Assembly: GCA_030019075.1 (NCBI GenBank)
Contig: JASEHD010000006.1
Location: 1 to 50,519, forward strand
DNA length: 50,519 bases
Direction of reading: 5' to 3'
Source: Bacteroidota bacterium
GTDB taxonomy: Bacteria; Bacteroidota; Ignavibacteria; UBA10030; SZUA-254
In this document: one piece after another, positions 4,653-23,545 of the stretch
Numbering within the stretch: the stretch's first letter is position 1
Layout: every line of letters begins with the position of its first letter
Position numbers and translations under genes: made by a program
The notes under the pieces: generated by a model
What the model was told of the DNA's origin: nothing
The model's database searches: none
Seen by the model: only the letters and a program-made list of their open reading frames with translations

Positions 4653-7019
4653 TTATCGCACTAAGATCATTTTCTTCACATCTGTAAATGATGAACCTGT
4701 CGAAGCACCGGCGGTTAGTTTGTAAAAATAAACACTGCTCGAAACTTGGCTACCGAAGTTATCGCTGCCGTCCCATAATACTTCGTAATAGCCGGCTTCT
4801 TGTAATTCATCTACAAGCTTTTTTACTTCCTGCCCGAAAATATTGTAAATCTTTATCTCGACCCTGTTGGATTGTGGAAGCTGGTATTTTATTAGCGTGC
4901 TTGGATTAAATGGATTTGGGTAATTTTGATTTAATGAAAAATGTAATTCATTCGTGCTAATATTTTTGATATCTACTGGATCAACAGTTTTAGCAAGTTC
5001 AGCCACCGAAGCAAGCATAAGTTGTGCACCTTTTTGAATTAAACTTGGATAAAGTTTATCGTAAGTATCGTTTACTGTATGGTAATACGGGTCGGCGCCG
5101 CCCCAGATTTCTTCCGGAGTTCCTTCGGCAATATCGAGTGCATCATAACCGGCTAATGCAAATGGACCGTAATCGCTTGCACCGGTATTATCAATTATGG
5201 CGTCTAAATTTAGTCCGATGTTATATCTTTGATTATACACTATTGCAGAATCGACTAAACGGTTTAGCGTCTGATAACTGCCAACTATCAATCGAGAAGT
5301 ATCAGAAGTTGTTGGATAACCAATCATATCGCCATTGACTACAACAATGATATTTCTCCCCTCATCACGAGCTTTAAATGCATAGTAGTCGCTGCCAAAC
5401 ATTCCCAACTCTTCCCCTGAGACTGCTAAAAATTTAATTGTATTTTCGAATTGATAATTTTTACACAACCGTGCGGCTTCCATAACGGCAGCAGTTCCAG
5501 TTCCGTTATCATTTGCACCGGGCGCAGCTACATAAGGTTGGTTGCTATACGAATCGTAGTGTGCTACAATTATACATTCTTTTTCTGGCGACACTGTTCC
5601 GGGTATAGCGGCAACGATGTTGCTCGAAGTATGAATATACAGCGGTGGAAGTGAAGCTGTCCGACGCAGCCAGTTTAATCCTCCGTTAGTAGATTTATAA
5701 AGATTAGCCGAAACTCCACAAACTGAAATAAGATTATTTGATAAAGCTTTTATGTTAGTTAGTTTTGCCCTCCAACCCTGATGATTATACTGGATAAACC
5801 AATTATCTCCACCATTAGTGGTTTTGAAAATAATTCCTGCATAATCTACAAACCATCCAGTCAATGAATCTATAAATGATACACCTCTAAGAATAGAGTC
5901 AGCCAAGGTTGGTGGATTTATCTTAATCCAATTTGTACCACCATTAGTTGTTTTAAGTATAGATTTACCATCGCCGACTATCCAGCCTTTTTGATTATCA
6001 ATAAAATTAACTGCTCGCAAGTATCGTATAAGTCCCAAGGGTTCACTTTGTACATCCCAATTTAACCCGCCGTCTATTGTATGTAATATAGTTGAATTTG
6101 TACCGACCGTCCATGCATTTAAGTTATCTACAAATTGTAATTCACGTAATATTTGTGTCGTTCCTGAAGAAATGCTCGACCAATTTGTGCCGCCGTTCGT
6201 TGTTCTTAAGATTATTCCACTTGCACCAGCGATTAACCCGAGTTGATCGTTTACAAAGTTGATATCATATAATGCTGCGTTTACATTGCTTGCCTGTGCA
6301 TTCCATGTTGTACCGCCGTCAGTAGTTTCCCGGATTATACCATTATTACCAACCGCCCAACCAGTTAAATTATTTACAAAATCAACCCCGAATAAATGCT
6401 CCGAGGTACCACTTGTTTGTGTAATCCACGATTCGCCGCCATCCGTAGTTTTTACGATCATCCCGTTGTTGCCAACTAACCAGCCCGTATTTTCATTTAC
6501 GAAATCAATGTCGTAGATAGTAGCAGTGTGTATTCCAAAAGTGTAAGTATCATATTCAACTTGTAAGCCCCAGCGTGCAAGCTGATTGTAGATATAAACT
6601 CCAGCCGAATCCTGTTGCGGCGTGTATTCGTAACGAGTTCCAAAATTTTGAAGGTCTAATATAATTTTTCTCAATGTGTCAGTTGATACATTGTTTACCA
6701 AAGATTGGATAATAGGGTTTGCCGTTCCTGCTTGTTTGCTAACTTGAGGTGTATGAAAGATAGTCTTGGGAACACTTAATACTTTCAATTGATAATCATT
6801 GAAACGGAGGAAGTAAAAATCGCGCGCCGAAATATCTGCCACTACTTTACCATCGGTTTGAGAAATAATACGAAGAGGGGAAATAAACTCTTGCAGTGCT
6901 TCAATACTTTGTTCGGCATTGAGAGTCATTTCTACATTAAAGAAATTTTTATCCTGACTAAAAATTGTAGATGCGATTAGACTAATTATGAAAATTATAG
7001 AGAAAAACCGTACAAACAT
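4653..7019 (-). CDS. Secreted M28-family peptidase with YCF48-like beta-propeller insert and T9SS-type C-terminal domain
   Basis: Repeats of '...GWxVGxxGxIxxTTxGGxxW...'; M28 motifs 'CIIVAHYDS', 'APGANDNGTGTAAVMEAAR', 'FLAVSGEELGMFGSDYYA'; C-terminal 'NYPNPFNPSTLIKYQLP...'. Confidence 0.88.
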   Translation of the reverse strand: MFVRFFSIIFIISLIASTIFSQDKNFFNVEMTLNAEQSIEALQEFISPLRIISQTDGKVVADISARDFYFLRFNDYQLKVLSVPKTIFHTPQVSKQAGTANPIIQSLVNNVSTDTLRKIILDLQNFGTRYEYTPQQDSAGVYIYNQLARWGLQVEYDTYTFGIHTATIYDIDFVNENTGWLVGNNGMIVKTTDGGESWITQTSGTSEHLFGVDFVNNLTGWAVGNNGIIRETTDGGTTWNAQASNVNAALYDINFVNDQLGLIAGASGIILRTTNGGTNWSSISSGTTQILRELQFVDNLNAWTVGTNSTILHTIDGGLNWDVQSEPLGLIRYLRAVNFIDNQKGWIVGDGKSILKTTNGGTNWIKINPPTLADSILRGVSFIDSLTGWFVDYAGIIFKTTNGGDNWFIQYNHQGWRAKLTNIKALSNNLISVCGVSANLYKSTNGGLNWLRRTASLPPLYIHTSSNIVAAIPGTVSPEKECIIVAHYDSYSNQPYVAAPGANDNGTGTAAVMEAARLCKNYQFENTIKFLAVSGEELGMFGSDYYAFKARDEGRNIIVVVNGDMIGYPTTSDTSRLIVGSYQTLNRLVDSAIVYNQRYNIGLNLDAIIDNTGASDYGPFALAGYDALDIAEGTPEEIWGGADPYYHTVNDTYDKLYPSLIQKGAQLMLASVAELAKTVDPVDIKNISTNELHFSLNQNYPNPFNPSTLIKYQLPQSNRVEIKIYNIFGQEVKKLVDELQEAGYYEVLWDGSDNFGSQVSSSVYFYKLTAGASTGSSFTDVKKMILVR

Positions 7020-7130
7020 AAGCGATCCATTTAGATTGTTTCGTGTTAACTTATTGAAAGTTACTACTTCAATAACTGAAACGCAAACTCATTAATTAAT
7101 GTTTGTTAGTTTTTTTCTTATATTCGGATA

Positions 7131-10100
7131 ATGATGGCTCAAACATCATACGACCCAAAAACGAATTTAGGTTTCCCCGATCTAAACTCGAAAATGAGAA
7201 TAATTATTCACCATAAAAGGAGAAAACCCTTGAGATCGATATTTTTTGTTATCCTAATGATTTTGGCTGCAAAATTTTTAACTTACAGCCAGACAAATGT
7301 CGATAAGCTTGTCAGCACACTCGACTCGCTTGGAACAGTTTCGTTCAACAACTGGAAAGTAAGTCCCGATTTGAAACAGGCAATCACAGGTGATCCGACA
7401 AAACCGGGGTATGACGATTCAAAATGGGGGAACATAAAACTTAATCAACTTATTTATCCTGATTCATGCTGGATAAGAAAAGAGATTATATTGCCAGATC
7501 AAATTCTCGGACAGCCAGTGGGCGGTGTAGTAAAGTTCCTTGTATCGGTGGACGATTATGGATTTCTATGGATAAACGGCGAGAGTAAAGGACATTTCCC
7601 TTGGGACGGTGCGTTTGAATTGACAAATGATGCAAAACCGGGACAGAAATTTCTTCTTGCTATCAAAGCAATTAACACTGGTGGTCCCTTACGACTACTG
7701 CGCGCAGAATTTGAGATGGAAGCCACAAAACCATTCAGCCGGATGATCGGTGATTTTGCAATAAGCTTAAGAGTTGGACAAAAGTTACTGAGCTTTGATA
7801 CATACCAGACAAATGCACGCAGGAAACAAGACCCTGGCATTGATAATTCTAAAATGGATAGGGAGGAAAAAATACGCTTAAATAACCTGTTACAAAATTC
7901 AGTAACTGAAGTTGATGTATCGGCTTTGAAATCAGGTTCGCTGGATAAATTTTCGACTTCGATAGATAAGGTTCGCACACAGTTAAAACCAGTCAGTGAA
8001 TTTGCTAAAAGGTATACACTTTTTTTCGATGCCAATGCTCACATAGATGCGGCATGGCTCTGGCGGGAACGGGAAACAATCGAAGTTTGTAAAAATACTT
8101 TTACATCGGTTCTTAACATGATGGACTCGCGACCCGATTTTACATACACGCAAAGCTCGGCTGCTTATTATGATTGGATGGAAAAACTTTATCCCGGCGT
8201 GTTCAAACGAATTGTTCCTCGAGTCAAAGATGGTCGCTGGGAATTAATAGGCGGTATGTGGATTGAGCCCGATTGTAATTTACCGAGCGGTGAGTCATGG
8301 ATGAGGCAGCTGCTTTACGCAAAACGGTACTTCAAAGAAAAATTCGGTGTCGATGTGAAAATTGGATGGAATCCTGATTCGTTCGGTTATAACTGGAACA
8401 TGCCGCAGTTTTATGTAAATGCCGGCATTGATGCCTTCGTTACGCAGAAGATCGGATGGAATGAAACGAACGTATTCCCTCATCGTGCATTTTGGTGGGA
8501 AAGCCCTGACGGCTCACGAATACTTAGTTATTTCCCGTTCGATTATGTAAATACCGTTGATGACCCTTACAGGTTGGTGGATTGGGCTCGGCAGTTTGAT
8601 GCTAATACCGGTTTTACCAAAATGATGATCCTCTTTGGCGTCGGTGACCATGGTGGTGGACCATCCGATGACATGATTGATCGAATTGAACATCTAAAAA
8701 CCCTCGACATCTATCCTACTATAGAATACGGAACCACTGCACAATACCTTGATTGGCTGAAGAGACAAGATTTATCATCGCTTCCGGTCTGGAAAGATGA
8801 ACTATATCTTGAATATCATCAAGGAACATTCACTACGCAGGCAAAAACAAAGGAATGGAATCGGAAAAGTGAAGTGCTTCTGACAAATGTAGAAAAATTT
8901 TCCTCTCTCTCATCGATGTTTGGAGGAAATTACAATTCAAATAACATCGAAGAGGCATGGAAGAATGTGCTCTTCAATCAATTTCACGATATTCTCCCTG
9001 GCTCCAGTATACACGAAGTATATGTAGACGCACCCGAGCGGTACGAACAAGCAGGGGCAATTGGTTTGTACGAGCTGAAGAAAGCATTGATATATCTATC
9101 AAATCAAATCAACACGGCAATCATTAAGAAAGGTGAGCCAATTATTGTATTCAATCCGTTGCCATGGGAACGGACCAACATTGCAACACTTCAACTTCCT
9201 GAAGCAGATTATAACGATTACAGTATCTTCGATGTAAGTGGAAAAGAAATCCCATCTCAAATCATACAAAAAGATAGGTATCATCGAGACATAATATTCA
9301 CAGCCGAAAATATTCCTTCGCTTGGATATAAACTTTTTGAATTAAGAAAACAAAAATCAGCGGCAGTTTCAAAGAATTTTTCCGCTGCCCAAGCTTTGTT
9401 AGAAAATGAATTCTTCACTGTCATTTTAGACCCGGCAACCGGCTGGGTAACAAGCATCGTGGATAAACGAAACGGAAGAGAAATACTTTCCGGCTTAGGC
9501 AATGAACTACAAATGTTGGAAGACAAGCCCTCTGCCTGGGATGCATGGAACATTGGACTGACGGGCAAGCAATTTCCTACATCGCTGCGAAAAATTGAAG
9601 TTATTGAAAACGGTCCAGTCCGTGCAACACTACGCATTACGAGAGATTATTTAAAACCCGGCGTTAAAAAAGAAGCACCCACGCAAGATTACCCAAGCAC
9701 CTTCTTCACTCAGGAGATATCCTTGTATGATGGAATTGATTACATAGATTTCAAAACAGATGTCGATTGGTGGGAAGAAAAAACAATGCTTAAGGTTGCA
9801 TTCCCGATATCTGTAAAAAACACTTTTGCCACATACGAGATTCCATACGGTACAATTCAACGCTCTACACAATGGCGCGATAGCTGGGATAGCGCTAAAG
9901 TTGAAGTGCCGGCACTTCGCTGGGCGGATCTTTCACAACATGATTATGGTGTTAGCTTGTTAAACAATTCTAAATACGGTTACGACATCAAAGATAATAT
10001 TATAAGACTTTCATTGCTGCGTTCACCAAAATGGCCCGACCCAATGGCAGACAGAGGAAAGCATTCTATCAGCTATGCACTTTTTCCACACGCTGATCAA

Positions 10101-10457
10101 TGGCATCAGGCAAAAACTGTATATCGTGGATATGAATATAATTATCCACTCTTGGCTTTCAGAAGCAACAAACACAAAGGCAAGCTTCCAGCAAAACATT
10201 CTTTTTCCCAGTTACAGCCATCCAATCTCATTCTAACAACAATTAAAAAAGCAGAAGACACGGATGCTTGGATTTTTCAATGGTATGATGCAAAGGGGGA
10301 AGAAACTGAAGCTATATTGACATTGCCAAAGAGTCCAAAGAAAGCTGCACTCTCCAACTTCATGGAAGAGGAAAAAGAGGTATTGCAAATAACGGGGAAT
10401 ATAATAAAAGCGCCGACGAAGAAACACGGTGTTGCAACGGTTAAAGTATGGTTTTAG
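7131..10457 (+). CDS. Secreted GH38 alpha-mannosidase-like glycoside hydrolase
   Basis: 'FFDANAHIDAAWLWRERETIEVC', 'FTYTQSSAAYYDWMEKLYP', 'GGMWIEPDCNLPSGESWMRQLLYAKRYFKEKFG', 'GWNPDSFGYNWNMPQF' are GH38 signatures. True start may be downstream. Confidence 0.9.
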   Translation: MMAQTSYDPKTNLGFPDLNSKMRIIIHHKRRKPLRSIFFVILMILAAKFLTYSQTNVDKLVSTLDSLGTVSFNNWKVSPDLKQAITGDPTKPGYDDSKWGNIKLNQLIYPDSCWIRKEIILPDQILGQPVGGVVKFLVSVDDYGFLWINGESKGHFPWDGAFELTNDAKPGQKFLLAIKAINTGGPLRLLRAEFEMEATKPFSRMIGDFAISLRVGQKLLSFDTYQTNARRKQDPGIDNSKMDREEKIRLNNLLQNSVTEVDVSALKSGSLDKFSTSIDKVRTQLKPVSEFAKRYTLFFDANAHIDAAWLWRERETIEVCKNTFTSVLNMMDSRPDFTYTQSSAAYYDWMEKLYPGVFKRIVPRVKDGRWELIGGMWIEPDCNLPSGESWMRQLLYAKRYFKEKFGVDVKIGWNPDSFGYNWNMPQFYVNAGIDAFVTQKIGWNETNVFPHRAFWWESPDGSRILSYFPFDYVNTVDDPYRLVDWARQFDANTGFTKMMILFGVGDHGGGPSDDMIDRIEHLKTLDIYPTIEYGTTAQYLDWLKRQDLSSLPVWKDELYLEYHQGTFTTQAKTKEWNRKSEVLLTNVEKFSSLSSMFGGNYNSNNIEEAWKNVLFNQFHDILPGSSIHEVYVDAPERYEQAGAIGLYELKKALIYLSNQINTAIIKKGEPIIVFNPLPWERTNIATLQLPEADYNDYSIFDVSGKEIPSQIIQKDRYHRDIIFTAENIPSLGYKLFELRKQKSAAVSKNFSAAQALLENEFFTVILDPATGWVTSIVDKRNGREILSGLGNELQMLEDKPSAWDAWNIGLTGKQFPTSLRKIEVIENGPVRATLRITRDYLKPGVKKEAPTQDYPSTFFTQEISLYDGIDYIDFKTDVDWWEEKTMLKVAFPISVKNTFATYEIPYGTIQRSTQWRDSWDSAKVEVPALRWADLSQHDYGVSLLNNSKYGYDIKDNIIRLSLLRSPKWPDPMADRGKHSISYALFPHADQWHQAKTVYRGYEYNYPLLAFRSNKHKGKLPAKHSFSQLQPSNLILTTIKKAEDTDAWIFQWYDAKGEETEAILTLPKSPKKAALSNFMEEEKEVLQITGNIIKAPTKKHGVATVKVWF

Positions 10458-10539
10458 GTTTATTTGACCTTTATGTTTCTATTTTCTAACTTATTGTATA
10501 ATTCGCTATTGTTTATGCACTAAAAATGTGAGGTGTGAT

Positions 10540-11772
10540 ATGAATAAAGTCCTTTTCGCGATTATCGCATTGATTGTTATATTTGTTTCCTGCTCGAAGG
10601 AAACAACGGCGCCAGTTCAACCTTCGCCGCCGCGTGCATTAACGCAGACCGAAATGAAACTCGTTGAAGCCGATAATTCTTTTGGTTTAAAACTCTTCCA
10701 CGAAATCAATAAAACCGAAGCCAATAAAAATCTTTTTATTTCACCACTTAGCGTTTCAATGGTGCTTGGTATGACACTCAACGGGGCAAGCGGAAGTACT
10801 TATGACTCGATGCAGCATACATTGGAATATGAAGGATTAACCGAACAGGAAATTAATGAGGGATATAAAAATCTTATTATCCTGCTGACATCTCTTGATC
10901 CTAAAGTTCAATTTCAAATTGCGAATTCAATCTGGCATCGACTTGAGTTGCAGGTAGAACAAGAATTTGTCTCAACAAACAAGAATTATTTCAATGCTGA
11001 TGTCACCGGCTTAGATTTTTCTTCTCCATCGGCTTCACCAACAATCAACAGTTGGATTGAACAGAAGACAAATGGTAAAATTAAAAGGATCGTGCCCGAC
11101 CAAATACCCTGGAGTACAGTGATGTATCTCATCAATGCGATTTACTTCAAGGGAACGTGGAAGTACGAGTTCAAAAAAGAGTTGACACAGGAAGCTCCAT
11201 TCTATTTGACCGACGGTTCTCAAAAGGCATGTGAGCTAATGAAAATTGACGGCGAGTTTTCTTATGTTGAAAATGAGCAATTCCTGGCAATCGATCTTCC
11301 ATACGGAAACGAGAAGTTCAGTATGACTGTCTTTCTACCGAAGCAAGGTGTCAACATAGATGCATTTGTTTTTAATTTCACTAAAGAAAATTGGGAGACA
11401 TGGATTAAAACATTTATGAAGCGGGAAGGCACATTGTTTCTTCCAAAGTTCAAGATTGAATATGAGAAATTGCTGAACGACATGCTCAAAGCGATGGGGA
11501 TGGAAATTGCATTTGATGAAAGTCGTGCAGATTTTACACGCATCAATAAAAATGGTGGATTATTTATTAGCAATGTGAAGCATAAAACATTCGTTGACGT
11601 GAACGAAGAAGGAACCGAGGCTGCTGCGGTAACTTCAGTGGAAATCGATATGGTAAGCTATCCACCCTCCAAGTTTAATATGCGTGTCGATAGGCCATTT
11701 GTATTCGTTTTACGAGAACACCATTCGCAGACAATCCTTTTTGTCGGCAAGATCGCTGAACTGACATTGTAG
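10540..11772 (+). CDS. Serpin-family protease inhibitor, predicted lipoprotein
   Basis: Lipobox-like 'IFVSCSKE'; serpin core 'NLFISPLSVSMVLGMTLNGASG', 'INSWIEQKTNGKI', 'DVNEEGTEAAAVTSVEI' hinge and 'RPFVFVLREHHSQTILFVGKI'. Confidence 0.93.
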   Translation: MNKVLFAIIALIVIFVSCSKETTAPVQPSPPRALTQTEMKLVEADNSFGLKLFHEINKTEANKNLFISPLSVSMVLGMTLNGASGSTYDSMQHTLEYEGLTEQEINEGYKNLIILLTSLDPKVQFQIANSIWHRLELQVEQEFVSTNKNYFNADVTGLDFSSPSASPTINSWIEQKTNGKIKRIVPDQIPWSTVMYLINAIYFKGTWKYEFKKELTQEAPFYLTDGSQKACELMKIDGEFSYVENEQFLAIDLPYGNEKFSMTVFLPKQGVNIDAFVFNFTKENWETWIKTFMKREGTLFLPKFKIEYEKLLNDMLKAMGMEIAFDESRADFTRINKNGGLFISNVKHKTFVDVNEEGTEAAAVTSVEIDMVSYPPSKFNMRVDRPFVFVLREHHSQTILFVGKIAELTL

Positions 11773-17712: not shown

Positions 17713-20214
17713 TCAGGAAACTTTAGCGCTGCTTTGTTCGGCTTCAGGTTCTTTTATTTTCTTCTTTGACCTGTTTGCCTCCATGAAACGCAATGATTCT
17801 GTCTTAGGGTTTAGTTTTACCCTTATAATACTATCCTGACCAAGCTTGCCGCGAAGAATTTCCTCAGCTATCGGGTCTTCTACATATTTTTGTAAGGCAC
17901 GTTTCAATGGCCGAGCGCCAAATGCAGGATCATATCCTTTATCAACAAGAAATTCTCTTGCTTGCTTCGTTAATAGAATCTTAATCTCCATCGATGCCAT
18001 TCTCTTTACTAACTCTCGCATCTGAATATCAATAATCTTGTCGATGTGTTCACGTCCTAAATTATGGAATACGATTGTATCGTCGATACGGTTAAGGAAT
18101 TCTGGATTAAAAACCCGTTTAACAGCGTCTTCAATCGTATTCTTCATTGTTTTATAATTATCCTTTGGTGTGTCAATACCAAAACCGAAGCCGCCTGTCG
18201 TTTTAATATCGCGAGCACCGATATTAGATGTCATAATAATAATTGAGTTTTTAAAATCAACACGTCGTCCAAGACTGTCGGTTAGTATTCCATCATCGAA
18301 AACCTGGAGTAGGATATTGAAAACATCCGGATGCGCTTTCTCAATTTCATCTAAAAGAACAACTGAATATGGTTTCCGACGAACTTTTTCAGTCAACTGC
18401 CCCCCTTCTTCATATCCGACATAACCCGGTGGTGCACCAATGAGGCGTGATACACTAAATTTCTCCATGTATTCGCTCATATCGATACGTATCAGTGCTT
18501 CTTCAGTATCGAATAAATAACGAGCAAGTGCTTTCGCCATCTCAGTTTTTCCAACACCTGTAGGACCTAAAAAGATAAAAGAACCAATCGGTCGTTTTGG
18601 ATCCTTCAGTCCTGCACGTGTTCGTCGAATCGCTTTACTCAGCTTTTGGATGGCTTCATCCTGCCCCACGATAACTTTTTTTAATGCTTCTTCCATCTTT
18701 AAGAGTCTCTCGGATTCAGATTGAGCGATCCTATTAACCGGTATTCCGGTCATCATGGAGACAACATCTGCGATGGTTTCTTCATTCACCTCATGAATAA
18801 CTAATTGTGTTTTTTGTTCCCAATCATGTTTTGCTGTTTCAAGATCGTGAAGTATCCTCTTTTCTAAATCCCGTAGCCGTGCTGCTTCCTCAAAATTTTG
18901 ACTCTTCACCACATGGTTCTTAGACTGACGAACCTTCTCAAGATCGGTCTCCAAATTTAGTACCTCTTGCGGCACTTTGATATTAGAAAGATGAACACGT
19001 GAGCCAGCTTCGTCCATAACATCAATTGCCTTATCAGGCAAATATCTATCGGTAATGTAACGATCACTCAACCTTACTGCAGATTCAAGGGCTTTCTCAG
19101 TATAATGAACTGTATGATGTTCTTCATACTTGTGTTTAATGTTGCTTAGTATCTGGATCGTTTCATCTACCGAAGTTGGGTCGACCATTATTTTCTGGAA
19201 GCGGCGATCAAGCGCACCATCTTTTTCAATGTATTGCCGATACTCATCTAAAGTTGTCGCACCAATACACTGTAAATCACCCCGCGATAGTGCAGGTTTA
19301 AACATGTTGGATGCATCCAGAGAACCCGACGCCCCACCAGCACCAACTATTGTATGAAGCTCATCAATAAATAGAATAACATCTTTTGCTTTTTCAAGCT
19401 CGTTCATTACAGCTTTCATTCGCTCTTCAAATTGACCTCGATATTTCGTTCCCGCAACAAGAGCGGCAAGATCGAGTGTTACTACTCGTTTTTCGTGAAG
19501 TACGCGAGAAACTTTCTTTTGGACGATACGAATGGCTAATCCCTCTGCGATGGCAGTCTTACCGACGCCAGGTTCCCCGATTAGTACTGGATTGTTTTTC
19601 TTTCTACGACTTAATACCTGAGCAACCCGTTCAATTTCCTTCTCACGTCCGATGATCGGATCGAGTTTATCTTCGAGTGCCAACTTTGTTAAATCTCTAC
19701 CAAAGTTGTCTAAAACCGGAGTTTTTGATTTCTCGGCTTTTCTCTCAACAGCAGGTATCGAGGACGGACTTGAAGGTTTTCCGCTGATTATGTTGTCTAA
19801 TTCATTTCGGACTGCATCATAATGAATATTGAACTGGTGTAAAATCTGAGCAGCAATATTGTCATCATCTCTAAGTAAAGATAATAATAAATGTTCTGTC
19901 CCGATGACATCCGATTTATACAACTTGGCTTCCAAATAGGTAATCTTCAGCACTTTTTCTGCTTGTTTAGTGAGAGGAATATTACCGATTGTTAATGTTC
20001 CACCGGAGGTCCGGACTGTGTCTTCGATTGCTTTCTTTAGCTTGTAAAGGTCGACACCAAGATTACGAAGTATCTTTACTGCTATTCCTTCCCCTTCACG
20101 GATTACCCCGAGCAGAAGATGTTCGGTGCCGATATAATCATGCCCGAGACGTAAAGCTTCTTCCCGACTAAGTCGAATTACATCCTGCACACGATTAGAA
20201 AAATTACCTTCCAT
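17713..20214 (-). CDS. clpC: ATP-dependent Clp protease ATP-binding subunit ClpC
   Basis: Two N-terminal Clp_N repeats, two AAA+ modules ('[15 protein letters not shown]', '[15 protein letters not shown]') and a UVR-like middle segment. Confidence 0.97.
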
Positions 20215-20415
20215 TGAGATTCCTTTGTTTGTTTATTAACGATTCTACCATATTAAACAATGATTTAGGAAATTATATTCCATTTAAAATCAATATAGTC
20301 AAATCGGTAAGATTAATCAAATATCGGAGGTTGACTTTTGGGCTGAATTTTCATATATTTTATCACACTTTTCGTTGAAAAGTCTCATTGTGCGTAATAA
20401 TTGAGGAGTTAATAT

Positions 20416-20508
20416 TCCGCAGTAGCTCACCCGCCAAAAAGATAGCGGATAAAATGTTGGAGCATCCGGCTGTTATTCCGTTCTGAAGGAACGGAATGCA
20501 AGTTCGAG
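20416..20508 (+). pseudogene. tRNA-Asn-like remnant interrupted by palindromic inserts
   Basis: tccgcagtagctc-[acccgcc...aatgt]-tggagcatccggctgtt-[attccgttctgaaggaacggaat]-gcaagttcgag matches the tRNA-Asn at 20550 apart from the bracketed inserts; acceptor 3' half absent. Confidence 0.75.
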
Positions 20509-20549
20509 AATGGTGTAGAAAATTGGATGGTACAAATATTAACTGTGAT

Positions 20550-20621
20550 TCCGCAGTAGCTCAATGGTGGAGCATCCGGCTGTTAACCGGAGGGTTACAA
20601 GTTCGAGTCTTGTCTGCGGAG
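20550..20621 (+). tRNA. tRNA-Asn (anticodon GTT)
   Basis: TCCGCAG...CTGCGGA acceptor stem, GCTC/GGAGC D arm, TCCGG-CTGTTAA-CCGGA anticodon arm, ACAAG-TTCGAGT-CTTGT T arm. Confidence 0.95.
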
Positions 20622-20675
20622 CGAGATATAAGAAATCCCGATCAATCGAGGGGGATTTTAAATTTATGGGATACT
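20605..20675 (+). repeat. 71-bp direct repeat, copy A
   Basis: gagtcttgtctgcggagcgagatataagaaatcccgatcaatcgagggggattttaaatttatgggatact, identical at 20943-21013. Confidence 0.95.
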
Positions 20676-20896
20676 GGGTTTACATATTGCAATCCATTTC
20701 ACACGACAGATATTATGTTGGACAATCTGAAAATCCTGAACGTCGATTAGAATTTCATAATTCAATAGAGAAAGGATTTACCTCAAGATATAGGCCGTGG
20801 AAGTAAATATACAAAAAAGAATACGAGACAAGAGAAGAAGCAATCCGATCTGAGAAATTAAGATTTGAGCTTCCGGCTGTTATTCCGTTCTGAAGG
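20666..20896 (+). pseudogene. GIY-YIG nuclease-like ORF, interrupted
   Basis: MGYWVYILQSISHDRYYVGQSENPERRLEFHNSIEKGFTSRYRPWK* then in-frame IYKKEYETREEAIRSEKLRFE after a TAA at 20804; the family-like sequence then runs into tRNA-derived and palindrome sequence. Confidence 0.8.
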
Positions 20897-21013
20897 AACG
20901 GAATACAAGTTCTCAGCCAAAAGCTGATGCGCCTTCAGCGCAGAGTCTTGTCTGCGGAGCGAGATATAAGAAATCCCGATCAATCGAGGGGGATTTTAAA
21001 TTTATGGGATACT
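20872..21013 (+). pseudogene. Second tRNA-Asn 3' part with palindromic inserts plus 71-bp repeat copy B
   Basis: tccggctgtt-[attccgttctgaaggaacggaat]-acaagttc-[tcagccaaaagctgatgcgccttcagcgca]-gagtcttgtctgcgga... matches tRNA-Asn 3' sequence when the inserts are removed. Confidence 0.75.
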
Positions 21014-21134
21014 CTCTAATTATTCAAACTGACGTTTAAGCAATCAAGGAAATTAACAGTTGAATGTCATCCTCTTTTTCCATACCTTCTAATAATACTT
21101 ATATTTCGACAAAATAATAGAACAGGGTACAGCA

Positions 21135-21485
21135 ATGCAAATCTATATTGGAAATTTACCGCTTGAATATACTGATGCAGAATTGAGATCAATGTTCGAA
21201 GCATTCGGCAGTGTAAAAGAAGCAACAATCGGACGTAACAAAAAAACAAATGCTTCGGAAGGATACGGCATCGTTGTTATGTCTGTAAAGTCCGAAGCTC
21301 GCGCGGCTGTCAAAGATTTGCGGGGAAAACAGATTCAGGGGAAACCCCTAAGAGTCACAATTCTAAAACCCGGGGATATATTTCATACACAGGAAGCCGG
21401 AAGATCGGGAAAGCGTATTACGAAAAACAGCGGAACATTTCGCGGAACATCCACAATCAGACGTGGTGGGCAACGCGGAAGCTGA
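21135..21485 (+). CDS. RRM-domain RNA-binding protein
   Basis: 'MQIYIGNLPLEYTDAELRSMFEAFGSV' (RNP2) and 'EGYGIVVM' (RNP1-like). Confidence 0.93.
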   Translation: MQIYIGNLPLEYTDAELRSMFEAFGSVKEATIGRNKKTNASEGYGIVVMSVKSEARAAVKDLRGKQIQGKPLRVTILKPGDIFHTQEAGRSGKRITKNSGTFRGTSTIRRGGQRGS

Positions 21486-21670
21486 TTAATCCCATTCCCC
21501 GACGGATGAACCGCATGGAATTATTACAATTATTATCAATTTAGTAGGTCAATTTGGGATTATGAATATCTAGCTGTTGGGGTTGTTCAATGAGTTTCTC
21601 GCAATACCCAATCAAAGGATGATGTGCCTTCGGCGCAGAATCTTGCCTGATGAGCGAAAAATTGGTGATC

Positions 21671-23545
21671 CTATTTCACCAGCAACAATTTTTTCACATC
21701 CCGATGCTTTTTTGTTGAAAGCTCGTACAGATATATTCCGCTAGAGAATCTACTCCCATCCCAACTGATATTATATTCTCCAGCAGGTTTAAACTCATTC
21801 ACAAGCGTTTGAACTTCCCTCCCTATCACATCGAATATTTTCAATGAAACAAAACCGGAATTCTTTATACTGAAAAAAAATGTCGTAACCGGATTAAAAG
21901 GATTTGGATAATTCTGGGAAAGATAAAATTCTTTAGGATTATTAGTGCGGTGGGTCAAACTATTGTCAACCGGTAATGAGAGTATCGGAAGTTCAATGTA
22001 ACTCGGATAAGATGCATTCATCGCGATTAAGGTCTGACTCCGCTCGAACACCGGAACAACAAATGGACGATTTCCCATCACTAAGCGATTGGTAATATCG
22101 AGATTGCTTATTTCAATACGGATTGAATTACCTGACTTGAATTGATGCGCATGTGCGTAACCTTCAACATCAATAGTATCCCAAATTCCCGGTTGATTAT
22201 TTCTGCCAGTGTAATTAATCCGATTCACAAAATATTTTTTATTTGATGGATCAATTTCATATACCTGCACATTTATCTGGAATTTACTTGTATCAGAGTC
22301 AACGTAAAGATTCATCCGCGGTACACCCACCCAATCAACATCATTCACAAGAGGTGATGTTTGAAAAATCAACGATTGCTGACGAAAAGAAGAATCGAAC
22401 CATTCCCCTTGGAAATCATCCCAGAACGCCCAATAGAATGTATAGGTTGGATCTCGGTAATCATTTAGGAGTATCATACTCTGATTTGAATCAGTAGGTG
22501 GTGAATTTGCCAAGTTACCGTCGGCACGTAAATAAAATTTTACCGGCACGGCATTCGGTGGGGTCCAAGAATCAATTGCTTGGTGTGTCCATGTAAAATA
22601 ACCATTTGTGTCCATAGGCAGACTGCTGTACGCATAAGTAATATTTGGCTCAAGCAGAATACCTGTCTGTTCTCCCTTTAAAAATTCACCGAACCAGCGA
22701 GTTAACCAATCAAATTGGAAGCTCCACTCGTCCGGTATTTCATCTGAAAAATGTCCGCCTGTTCCAAGATATAATTTCGCTGCAACACTCTGAGTTGGAT
22801 ACAGAAGATAATTATCCATAGTTGCGTTCGCACGGGAATAATGATCCTGCCATTTTCCAAAGAGCATCAATGGTATTATTACATTTTGTAAGTCGGTAAG
22901 TTCAATATCTCTCCCACCAACAAACATATTGTAAAAAGCACTGTAATCATCATTAAGTAAAAAATCAAAAAGAGTATCACGGACAGCATCGTACTGAACA
23001 GTGTTTGCAAAGAGTAGATACATCAAAGTTGAGCGATAACAACCGTTAACAAGTATATCGGAAGCCCAGCGTGCGCCAATTTCATCTGCAGTGATAGCCC
23101 GAATAGGAAGCTGGTCGGCTGCCGCCCACAATCCATGTAAACCTCCTTGTGAGCCACCGGTAATACCAACCAAGTTTGAATCTACCCCTGAAATACTCCG
23201 AACGTAATTAATAATCGTTTCTAAATCTTTTCGCTCAAGAGTCGACATGATTTTAGAAAGACCTTCACTATCCCCATGCCCACGAACAGAAAATGTAAAT
23301 GTTAAATACCCCATATTAGCATAGAGTTGAGCTGATGGCATGGTTTCATATTTATCCATACCAAATCCGTGGACAAATATTATCGCTGGAAATCCATCCT
23401 TTGGTTTAGGTGGTTTGGGTACATAGTACGTGGCATCAAGTTTTACAGAATCAAATGTTTGAACTGTAACATCATTTCTTGTCTGTCCGAATCCTATCCC
23501 TATTATGACAACAGAAACAAAAATAATTTTAGCAATTGTTTTCAT
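21671..23545 (-). CDS. Secreted alpha/beta-hydrolase (CocE/X-Pro dipeptidyl peptidase-like) with T9SS-type C-terminal domain
   Basis: 'AIIFVHGFGMDKYE', 'VGITGGSQGGLHGLWAAA', beta-sandwich domain, 'NYPNPFNPVTTFFFSI...' C-terminus. Confidence 0.85.
   Translation of the reverse strand: MKTIAKIIFVSVVIIGIGFGQTRNDVTVQTFDSVKLDATYYVPKPPKPKDGFPAIIFVHGFGMDKYETMPSAQLYANMGYLTFTFSVRGHGDSEGLSKIMSTLERKDLETIINYVRSISGVDSNLVGITGGSQGGLHGLWAAADQLPIRAITADEIGARWASDILVNGCYRSTLMYLLFANTVQYDAVRDTLFDFLLNDDYSAFYNMFVGGRDIELTDLQNVIIPLMLFGKWQDHYSRANATMDNYLLYPTQSVAAKLYLGTGGHFSDEIPDEWSFQFDWLTRWFGEFLKGEQTGILLEPNITYAYSSLPMDTNGYFTWTHQAIDSWTPPNAVPVKFYLRADGNLANSPPTDSNQSMILLNDYRDPTYTFYWAFWDDFQGEWFDSSFRQQSLIFQTSPLVNDVDWVGVPRMNLYVDSDTSKFQINVQVYEIDPSNKKYFVNRINYTGRNNQPGIWDTIDVEGYAHAHQFKSGNSIRIEISNLDITNRLVMGNRPFVVPVFERSQTLIAMNASYPSYIELPILSLPVDNSLTHRTNNPKEFYLSQNYPNPFNPVTTFFFSIKNSGFVSLKIFDVIGREVQTLVNEFKPAGEYNISWDGSRFSSGIYLYELSTKKHRDVKKLLLVK

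Follow-up and report, generated by a model that had tools for sequence, protein, structure and literature searches.

In tRNA-integrated prophages, ICEs and genomic islands, the element's own copy of the tRNA end restores the tRNA, and the displaced end comes to lie at the far boundary. Double-hairpin elements and Rickettsia palindromic elements are short palindromic inserts, some of which are found in coding sequence. REPs are short palindromic inserts as well (PMC3733652), and group I introns with homing endonucleases in tRNA genes associate a nuclease gene with an interrupted tRNA gene (PMC3984707). SegB of phages T4 and T6 is a free-standing GIY-YIG homing endonuclease located in phage tRNA clusters (PMC13096335; PMC2988022). 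SegB of T-even phages is reported to be enriched beside phage tRNA genes and to promote segmental (tandem) amplification (PMC13096335) and to drive preferential inheritance of the tRNA region (PMC2988022), with no preferred tRNA isotype overall (PMC13096335; PMC2988022). In a survey of the GIY-YIG superfamily (PMC1564403), the three uses of "tRNA" are unrelated to gene neighbourhoods. Our search, which covered the open-licence literature, did not turn up a description of GIY-YIG genes linked to tRNAs and tRNA fragments in bacteria.

Here we describe a tRNA-Asn locus in a window of 50,519 nucleotides (positions 1 to 50,519 of contig JASEHD010000006.1, assembly GCA_030019075.1) from a Bacteroidota bacterium. 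We consider it probable that the repeat found there is a decayed copy of a family of homing-like tRNA-gene mini-elements of about 0.3–0.4 kb. The repeat search of the window returned a perfect direct repeat of 71 identical bp (20605–20675 and 20943–21013, both on the plus strand, spacing 338), and sequence comparison showed that it cannot be extended on either side. Each copy consists of the 18-nt 3′ end of tRNA-Asn(gtt), a linker of 43 nt that contains a terminator-like hairpin, and ATGGGATACT.

According to the ORF list, the locus is bounded on the left by a clpC-type ClpA/B ATPase gene (17713–20214, minus strand), which has orthologues in 20 of the 20 relatives and serves as the synteny anchor, and on the right by an RNA-binding (RRM) protein gene (21135–21485, plus strand). 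All features described between them are on the plus strand. The intact tRNA-Asn with anticodon GTT (20550–20622; ARAGORN, Rfam 69.4 bits) is followed by the linker with the terminator-like hairpin of the tRNA (20623–20665, from sequence and fold) and by a GIY-YIG ORF, which reads from ATG to an in-frame TAA at 20804–20806 (20666–20806; PF01541, E 1.8e-13 and 2.7e-14) and has intact homologues in the related genome G004 (PF01541, 8.8e-17). The GIY-YIG homology runs to about 20872 and is then truncated at the 3′ side, so the window copy is a pseudogene. Past ...SEKLRFE it passes into the 3′ part of a pseudo-tRNA-Asn (20867–20960; blastn of the intact tRNA and folds), composed of nt 21–36, a perfect hairpin (20883–20903) standing in place of the 3′ side of the anticodon arm, nt 47–55, a double hairpin (20913–20942) in the T loop, and nt 56–73. 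This fragment stops at the tRNA 3′ end. It is followed by the second linker/terminator copy (20961–21003, defined by the 71-bp repeat) and by a ATGGGATACT stub (21004–21013), which the repeat and the comparison with G004 identify as the opening 10 nt of a second GIY-YIG copy that has been lost. An Rfam search at E up to 1 over 20000–22000 gave tRNA only, and a group I intron was ruled out.

The first-pass annotation had described the repeat as the tRNA-Asn 3′ end, a linker and the start of a GIY-YIG ORF, had placed a stop codon at 20804, and had noted that tRNA sequence and a hairpin replace the ORF past SEKLRFE. All of this agrees exactly with the anatomy given above. In addition to that description, the repeat contains a terminator, the same anatomy occurs at many other tRNA genes of the genome, and another hairpin-bearing tRNA-Asn fragment lies on the 5′ side (20416–20508, plus strand; blastn of the intact tRNA and folds). 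This upstream pseudo-tRNA-Asn includes tRNA nt 1–14, a D-loop insert (20430–20452), nt 14–36, an anticodon-loop hairpin (20476–20496) and a T-arm piece, CAAGTTCGAG. The upstream and downstream pseudo-tRNAs share one anticodon-site hairpin.

The orthologous locus in two relatives shows an empty and a filled state. In G007 the order is clpC, tRNA-Asn, terminator and RRM gene (83% identical to that of the window), without a nuclease. In G004 the same clpC locus contains tRNA-Asn, terminator, nuclease, pseudo-tRNA, terminator, nuclease, pseudo-tRNA, terminator and a ATGGGATACTGG stub, with both nuclease copies intact in two tandem units; the terminators 3′ of tRNA-Asn in both genomes are similar in kind to that of the window. 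Because the G004 array ends, after its second unit, in the equivalent ATGGGATACTGG stub, the window repeat with its ATGGGATACT stub is best read as the worn remainder of a tandem array. Intact tandem units in G004 and an empty orthologous locus in G007 thus support the earlier suggestion of a unit that arrived at the tRNA by insertion or duplication and decayed afterwards. A gene beside its putative target, with some alleles empty (G007) and others filled (G004 and the window genome, G000), is the arrangement of a free-standing homing endonuclease, and the tRNA would be that target; the empty and filled sites compared belong to different genera, with no recent transfer caught among them.

The intact tRNA-Asn of the window is identical to that of the empty site in G007 (73/73 nt), which leaves no room for a protective base change. 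Therefore, immunity to self-cleavage would not lie in the tRNA sequence, which weighs against a homing-like reading, and the question arises of how an 85-residue nuclease could act at one tRNA isotype while the adjoining intact tRNA is spared. A separate observation comes from locus L098 (G020:C2), where three tandem hairpin-bearing pseudo-tRNA-Asn copies in ~120-bp units lie upstream of clpC, 5′ of an intact tRNA-Asn and without a GIY-YIG gene.

The association with tRNA genes extends over the whole genome. PF01541 matches were found at 16 places in G000 (a draft assembly of 226 contigs), and 13 standalone GIY-YIG places remained after subtracting UvrC and two ORFs of other kinds. Nine of the 13 adjoin a tRNA or tRNA fragments (binomial about 4e-16), the linked genes being Val(gac), Cys, Ser(cga) twice, Ser(tga), Asn, a Ser 3′-end pair and Leu(caa). 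This proportion and the agreement of many genomes rule out chance or artefact. Six tRNA genes of G000 that have no nuclease (Leu cag, Val tac, Val cac, Arg tct, Lys ttt and Ser gct) also adjoin hairpin-marked fragments of themselves, which look like scars.

We pooled this genome with 20 relatives, a sample of the phylum and 80 loci of named genomes, which gave 258 distinct nuclease places. An intact tRNA was present within 300 nt in 152 of them, at a median distance of 38 nt, and was on the same strand as the nuclease in 152 of 152 cases (opposite strand, 0); since the sequences are related by kinship and are not independent events, the figure of 2^-152 shows only the absence of exceptions. 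The adjoining tRNAs represent 34 anticodons and 16 isotypes. The flank beyond the ORF contained a fragment of the same tRNA, defined as at least 18 nt of exact matches, in 106 of 148 cases vs 3 of 1480 for controls with tRNAs of other isotypes. With a family-profile score of at least 70 bits, 201 places were retained, of which 137 had an intact tRNA and 29 more had tRNA fragments (166/201); several of the other 35 are inner copies of tandem arrays. Thus, the expectation that relatives would carry GIY-YIG homologues beside tRNA genes held in the relatives, in the phylum and in the named genomes.

The hosts belong to Bacteroidota, Ignavibacteriota, Fidelibacterota, Cloacimonadota and many candidate phyla radiation lineages, as well as to Verrucomicrobiota, Kiritimatiellota, Planctomycetota, Melainabacteria and one Woesearchaeota (archaeal) bin. 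The fragment signature was present in 82 of 110 cases in Bacteroidota/Ignavibacteriota, 16 of 22 in the candidate phyla radiation and 8 of 16 in other phyla. Nearly identical tRNA-Asn-type nucleases were detected in L199 (the Woesearchaeota bin) and in L202 and L223 (Cloacimonadota bins), which indicates either recent transfer or mis-binning. Within the order, UPF0213-like and other GIY-YIG clades of the same genomes are not beside tRNAs. Another GIY-YIG clade, comprising L005 and L011 (G000:C173 and C168) and, in relatives, L053 and L061, is likewise not tRNA-linked, and several of its members end in YLTG. The L005 and L011 ORFs are flanked by short inverted copies of CCCCGTGAGATA and perhaps represent a second kind of GIY-YIG mini-element.

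The units occur in two mirror forms. In form U, an intact tRNA is followed by a terminator (in some cases), the nuclease ORF and a 3′ fragment of the same tRNA; in form D, a 5′ fragment of the tRNA precedes the nuclease ORF and the intact tRNA. Among 103 loci with a chained fragment, 69 had 3′-end fragments and 34 had 5′-end fragments. For form U fragments, the distance to the tRNA 3′ end was 0 at all listed percentiles through the 75th and rose to 1 at the 90th. Form D fragments began at nt 1 through the 90th percentile, and in both forms the missing end was the one nearest the nuclease ORF. The far boundary therefore coincides with a duplicated tRNA end, as the first-pass annotation had proposed to check, namely the 3′ end if the nuclease is downstream and the 5′ end if it is upstream. 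Duplication of a complete tRNA followed by random decay fits this poorly, as the fragments almost always retain the outer end and lose the ORF-side end. We read the pattern of fragments as the likely trace of insertion into a tRNA gene with the missing half restored. At orthologous tRNAs of different genera, recognised by flanking proteins, the nuclease can be on opposite sides, as in Leu(caa) (L013/L027), Arg(tcg) (L021/L084) and Ser(cga) (L003/L046), and in the last pair the two nucleases belong to different clades.

A duplicated tRNA 3′ end is also the classic att signature, and the window derives from a draft assembly, so that a remnant of a conventional tRNA-integrated element (a prophage or ICE att site) or an assembly artefact has to be weighed. 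However, the GIY-YIG ORF is the sole gene of each unit of about 0.3–0.4 kb, the mirror form duplicates the 5′ end, and intact units occur in many genomes, including the single-contig genomes G148 and CP058703 (L208), with many loci in agreement. An att remnant was rejected because the units have no integrase gene, and we regard this explanation as a whole as hardly credible.

Tandem arrays include three units in G148 and in G094, and eight in G071. The eight units of G071 (L136, G071:C34:5500-11500) have a period of about 364 bp, hairpins and tRNA 3′ ends resembling tRNA-Met, and there is no intact tRNA within 5500–11500. In L003 (G000:C172), the nuclease ORF stops inside the next tRNA-Ser copy, and its last residues, RRGV, and the stop codon are encoded by the tRNA 5′ end.

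The nuclease ORFs encode about 80–95 aa and contain the GIY-YIG domain only; neither the domain search nor the structural model revealed a separate DNA-binding domain. Residues Y6, Y17, G19, R27, H31 and E63 are invariant in 62 sequences, and the catalytic residues of the GIY-YIG superfamily are thus conserved. The AlphaFold2 model has a pLDDT of 94, and the nearest solved folds are UPF0213 (PDB 1zg2; profile 4.6e-17) and SLX1 (PDB 6seh; profile 1.4e-10), with a TM-score of 0.68 to Slx1. In seven pairs close enough to measure, dN/dS was 0.09–0.19. This purifying selection implies that the gene is kept for its protein, whether by the host or by its own spread. PADLOC gave marginal partial matches to PDC-S14 only (E 0.002–0.01), and an anti-phage defence gene was ruled out. 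The nuclease tree follows the tRNA isotype, with 45 changes vs a shuffled mean of 109.5 (0 of 200 shuffles as low); the clustering can in part be inheritance at a locus, and it may partly come from DNA homology, since the carried tRNA half restores the matching tRNA only.

These properties would also suit a host function, in which a tRNA-linked housekeeping or regulatory enzyme cuts tRNA, its precursors or cruciforms of tRNA genes, or helps to preserve tRNA gene copies, while the fragments arise as a side effect of local duplication. Purifying selection, the same-strand geometry expected of co-transcription, isotype-specific nuclease clades and a structure-specific fold are all consistent with it. 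However, the nuclease is patchily distributed even between close relatives, with G001, G005 and G012 containing no GIY-YIG ORFs other than UvrC-sized ones, and different nuclease clades are found at the same tRNA. Frequent decay to pseudogenes and solo fragments, together with tandem arrays, has the look of a mobile parasite rather than of a needed enzyme. On this evidence we consider a host function unlikely.

Hairpins are a recurrent feature of the tRNA fragments. We found 86 inserts, defined as at least 8 extra nt inside a tRNA fragment, and 72 of them were in loops (T loop 35, anticodon loop 20, D loop 17; elsewhere 14), the commonest T-loop site being 18 nt from the tRNA 3′ end. At z below -2, 66 of the 86 fold. 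The anticodon-site hairpin of tRNA-Met and tRNA-Asn units is in the same place in several lineages and has compensatory changes. In a small hand-gathered set, 98% of cells were paired and 5 changed on both sides (0 of 500 shuffles as high), a covariation for which there can be another cause, as template switching can also maintain perfect palindromes.

The loop positions and folding of these inserts would suit the view that the hairpins are the true mobile entity, that is, REP/MITE-like or double-hairpin elements inserting at the tips of tRNA loops and mobilised by the GIY-YIG protein as RAYT mobilises REPs, with the split tRNAs as collateral. The double-hairpin pattern, found at 10 places in the genome vs 0 for a control pattern, with two of the places within protein-coding sequence, points the same way, as do Leu(cag) and Val(cac), where hairpin-like arms within another tRNA enclose an intact one. 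Eight of the ten places are at tRNA or tRNA-fragment loci. Against this, the window anticodon hairpin has only two copies in the genome, both at the locus, even when 3 mismatches are allowed, and it is therefore not a dispersed REP; hairpins at one place covary between genomes, unlike copies of one dispersed repeat, and fragments with few or no hairpins exist. Mobile hairpins as the primary element thus seem to us quite improbable. The hairpins may break up the sequence shared by the two tRNA copies into short tracts (longest exact match, median 22 nt, at most 35 nt in 90% of cases) and thereby guard the element from deletion; alternatively, they may be traces left by the nuclease acting at stem-loops, or independent palindromic mobile elements. 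Regarding the two places in coding sequence, L257 (G000:C66:29623-29653) and L258 (G000:C88:35103-35133) have the double-hairpin motif inside the apparent coding sequence of proteins with a secretion-type C-terminal sorting domain, apparently in frame, and recall Rickettsia palindromic elements.

The nested tRNAs deserve a closer description. In L261 (G000:C186:5500-6300), an intact tRNA-Leu(cag) is nested in a split, hairpin-bearing tRNA-Leu(cag), the outer pieces of which match the type proper to the family (G004, G007, G010). The inner tRNA is foreign-looking, its best identity to any relative being 86%, in another family. In L264 (G000:C155:8500-9000), an intact tRNA-Val(cac) is nested in a split hairpin-bearing copy of the type present in G004, G007 and G009, from which it differs in two compensated acceptor-stem pairs. 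Both loci are now without a nuclease, and their link to the GIY-YIG element is our inference. In L262 (G000:C11:8500-9400), positions 470–560 hold a full-length pseudo-tRNA-Val(tac) in which a long hairpin replaces the anticodon arm alone; it adjoins an intact tRNA-Val of another acceptor type, and the nuclease is now absent.

Based on these comparisons, we suggest that the element would consist of one gene for a single-domain SLX1/UPF0213-like GIY-YIG nuclease and half of a tRNA gene. It would sit inside a tRNA gene, so that one resident half comes to lie beyond the nuclease gene, and an intact tRNA would be restored by the half that the element carries or that was duplicated along with it. 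The element would be mobile through homing: the nuclease would break the tRNA gene, probably at a stem-loop, and the break would be repaired by copying from the element-carrying chromosome, the tRNA sequence providing the homology. Tandem arrays could arise through repeated breaks together with unequal recombination, and hairpin-marked tRNA fragments would remain once the nuclease has decayed. The nuclease gene is most likely read from the tRNA promoter, since gene and tRNA always run in the same direction. Several observations count against this homing-like model: a search for a phage or plasmid vehicle gave only distant matches below 50% identity, the nuclease has no separate DNA-binding domain, the empty and filled sites compared come from different genera, and the isotype clustering can in part be inheritance at a locus. 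More tentatively, and with some doubt, the family may be a new class of parasite that captures essential tRNA genes: the nuclease and hairpins would disable the resident tRNA, and the element would provide the one functional copy, at times of foreign origin, and could therefore not be lost by the host. The nested tRNA-Leu(cag) and tRNA-Val(cac) of this genome would be examples.

The family is apparently a very widespread and undescribed genetic parasite. If so, many small genes annotated only as "GIY-YIG nuclease family protein" in Bacteroidota, the candidate phyla radiation and other phyla would share one explanation, as minimal selfish elements that reside at tRNA genes and have neither integrase nor intron. 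With one domain of about 80–90 aa, they would be among the smallest autonomous homing-type elements. Many tRNA pseudogenes would be accounted for, and the replacement and transfer of tRNA genes may have been driven by such elements.

In comparison with known systems, the mini-element resembles tRNA-integrated prophages and ICEs in that the tRNA is restored and the displaced end lies at the far boundary, but it has no integrase, is far smaller (0.3–0.4 kb) and is also common in a 5′-end version. It differs from a group I intron in having no intron and an intact, uninterrupted tRNA next to it. Unlike REPs and Rickettsia palindromes, its hairpins are concentrated at loop positions of tRNA fragments beside GIY-YIG genes; REP/RAYT elements or MITEs would have many genomic copies, whereas the window anticodon hairpin is locus-specific and the double hairpin is only partly dispersed (10 places). 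Classical homing endonucleases have a separate DNA-binding domain, which the mini-element nuclease lacks. In fold and size it is like the single-domain GIY-YIG nucleases of the UPF0213/SLX1 type (PF01541; PDB 1zg2, 6seh; PMC1564403), but the UPF0213-like paralogues in the same genomes form other clades away from tRNAs, and SLX1 works with SLX4 on branched DNA, unlike the role proposed here. The nearest fold is thus UPF0213/SLX1, and the nearest described system is phage SegB, likewise a GIY-YIG nuclease adjoining tRNA genes. SegB is reported as a phage gene between intact tRNAs and is not known to be accompanied by duplicated halves of the same tRNA or hairpin-replaced arms. Since the nuclease of about 85 aa has no extra DNA-binding module, we do not assign it to the SegB family; compared with SegB, the bacterial family is chromosomal, consists of the GIY-YIG domain only, has clades that track the tRNA isotype, and splits the tRNA itself, with hairpins in the pieces.
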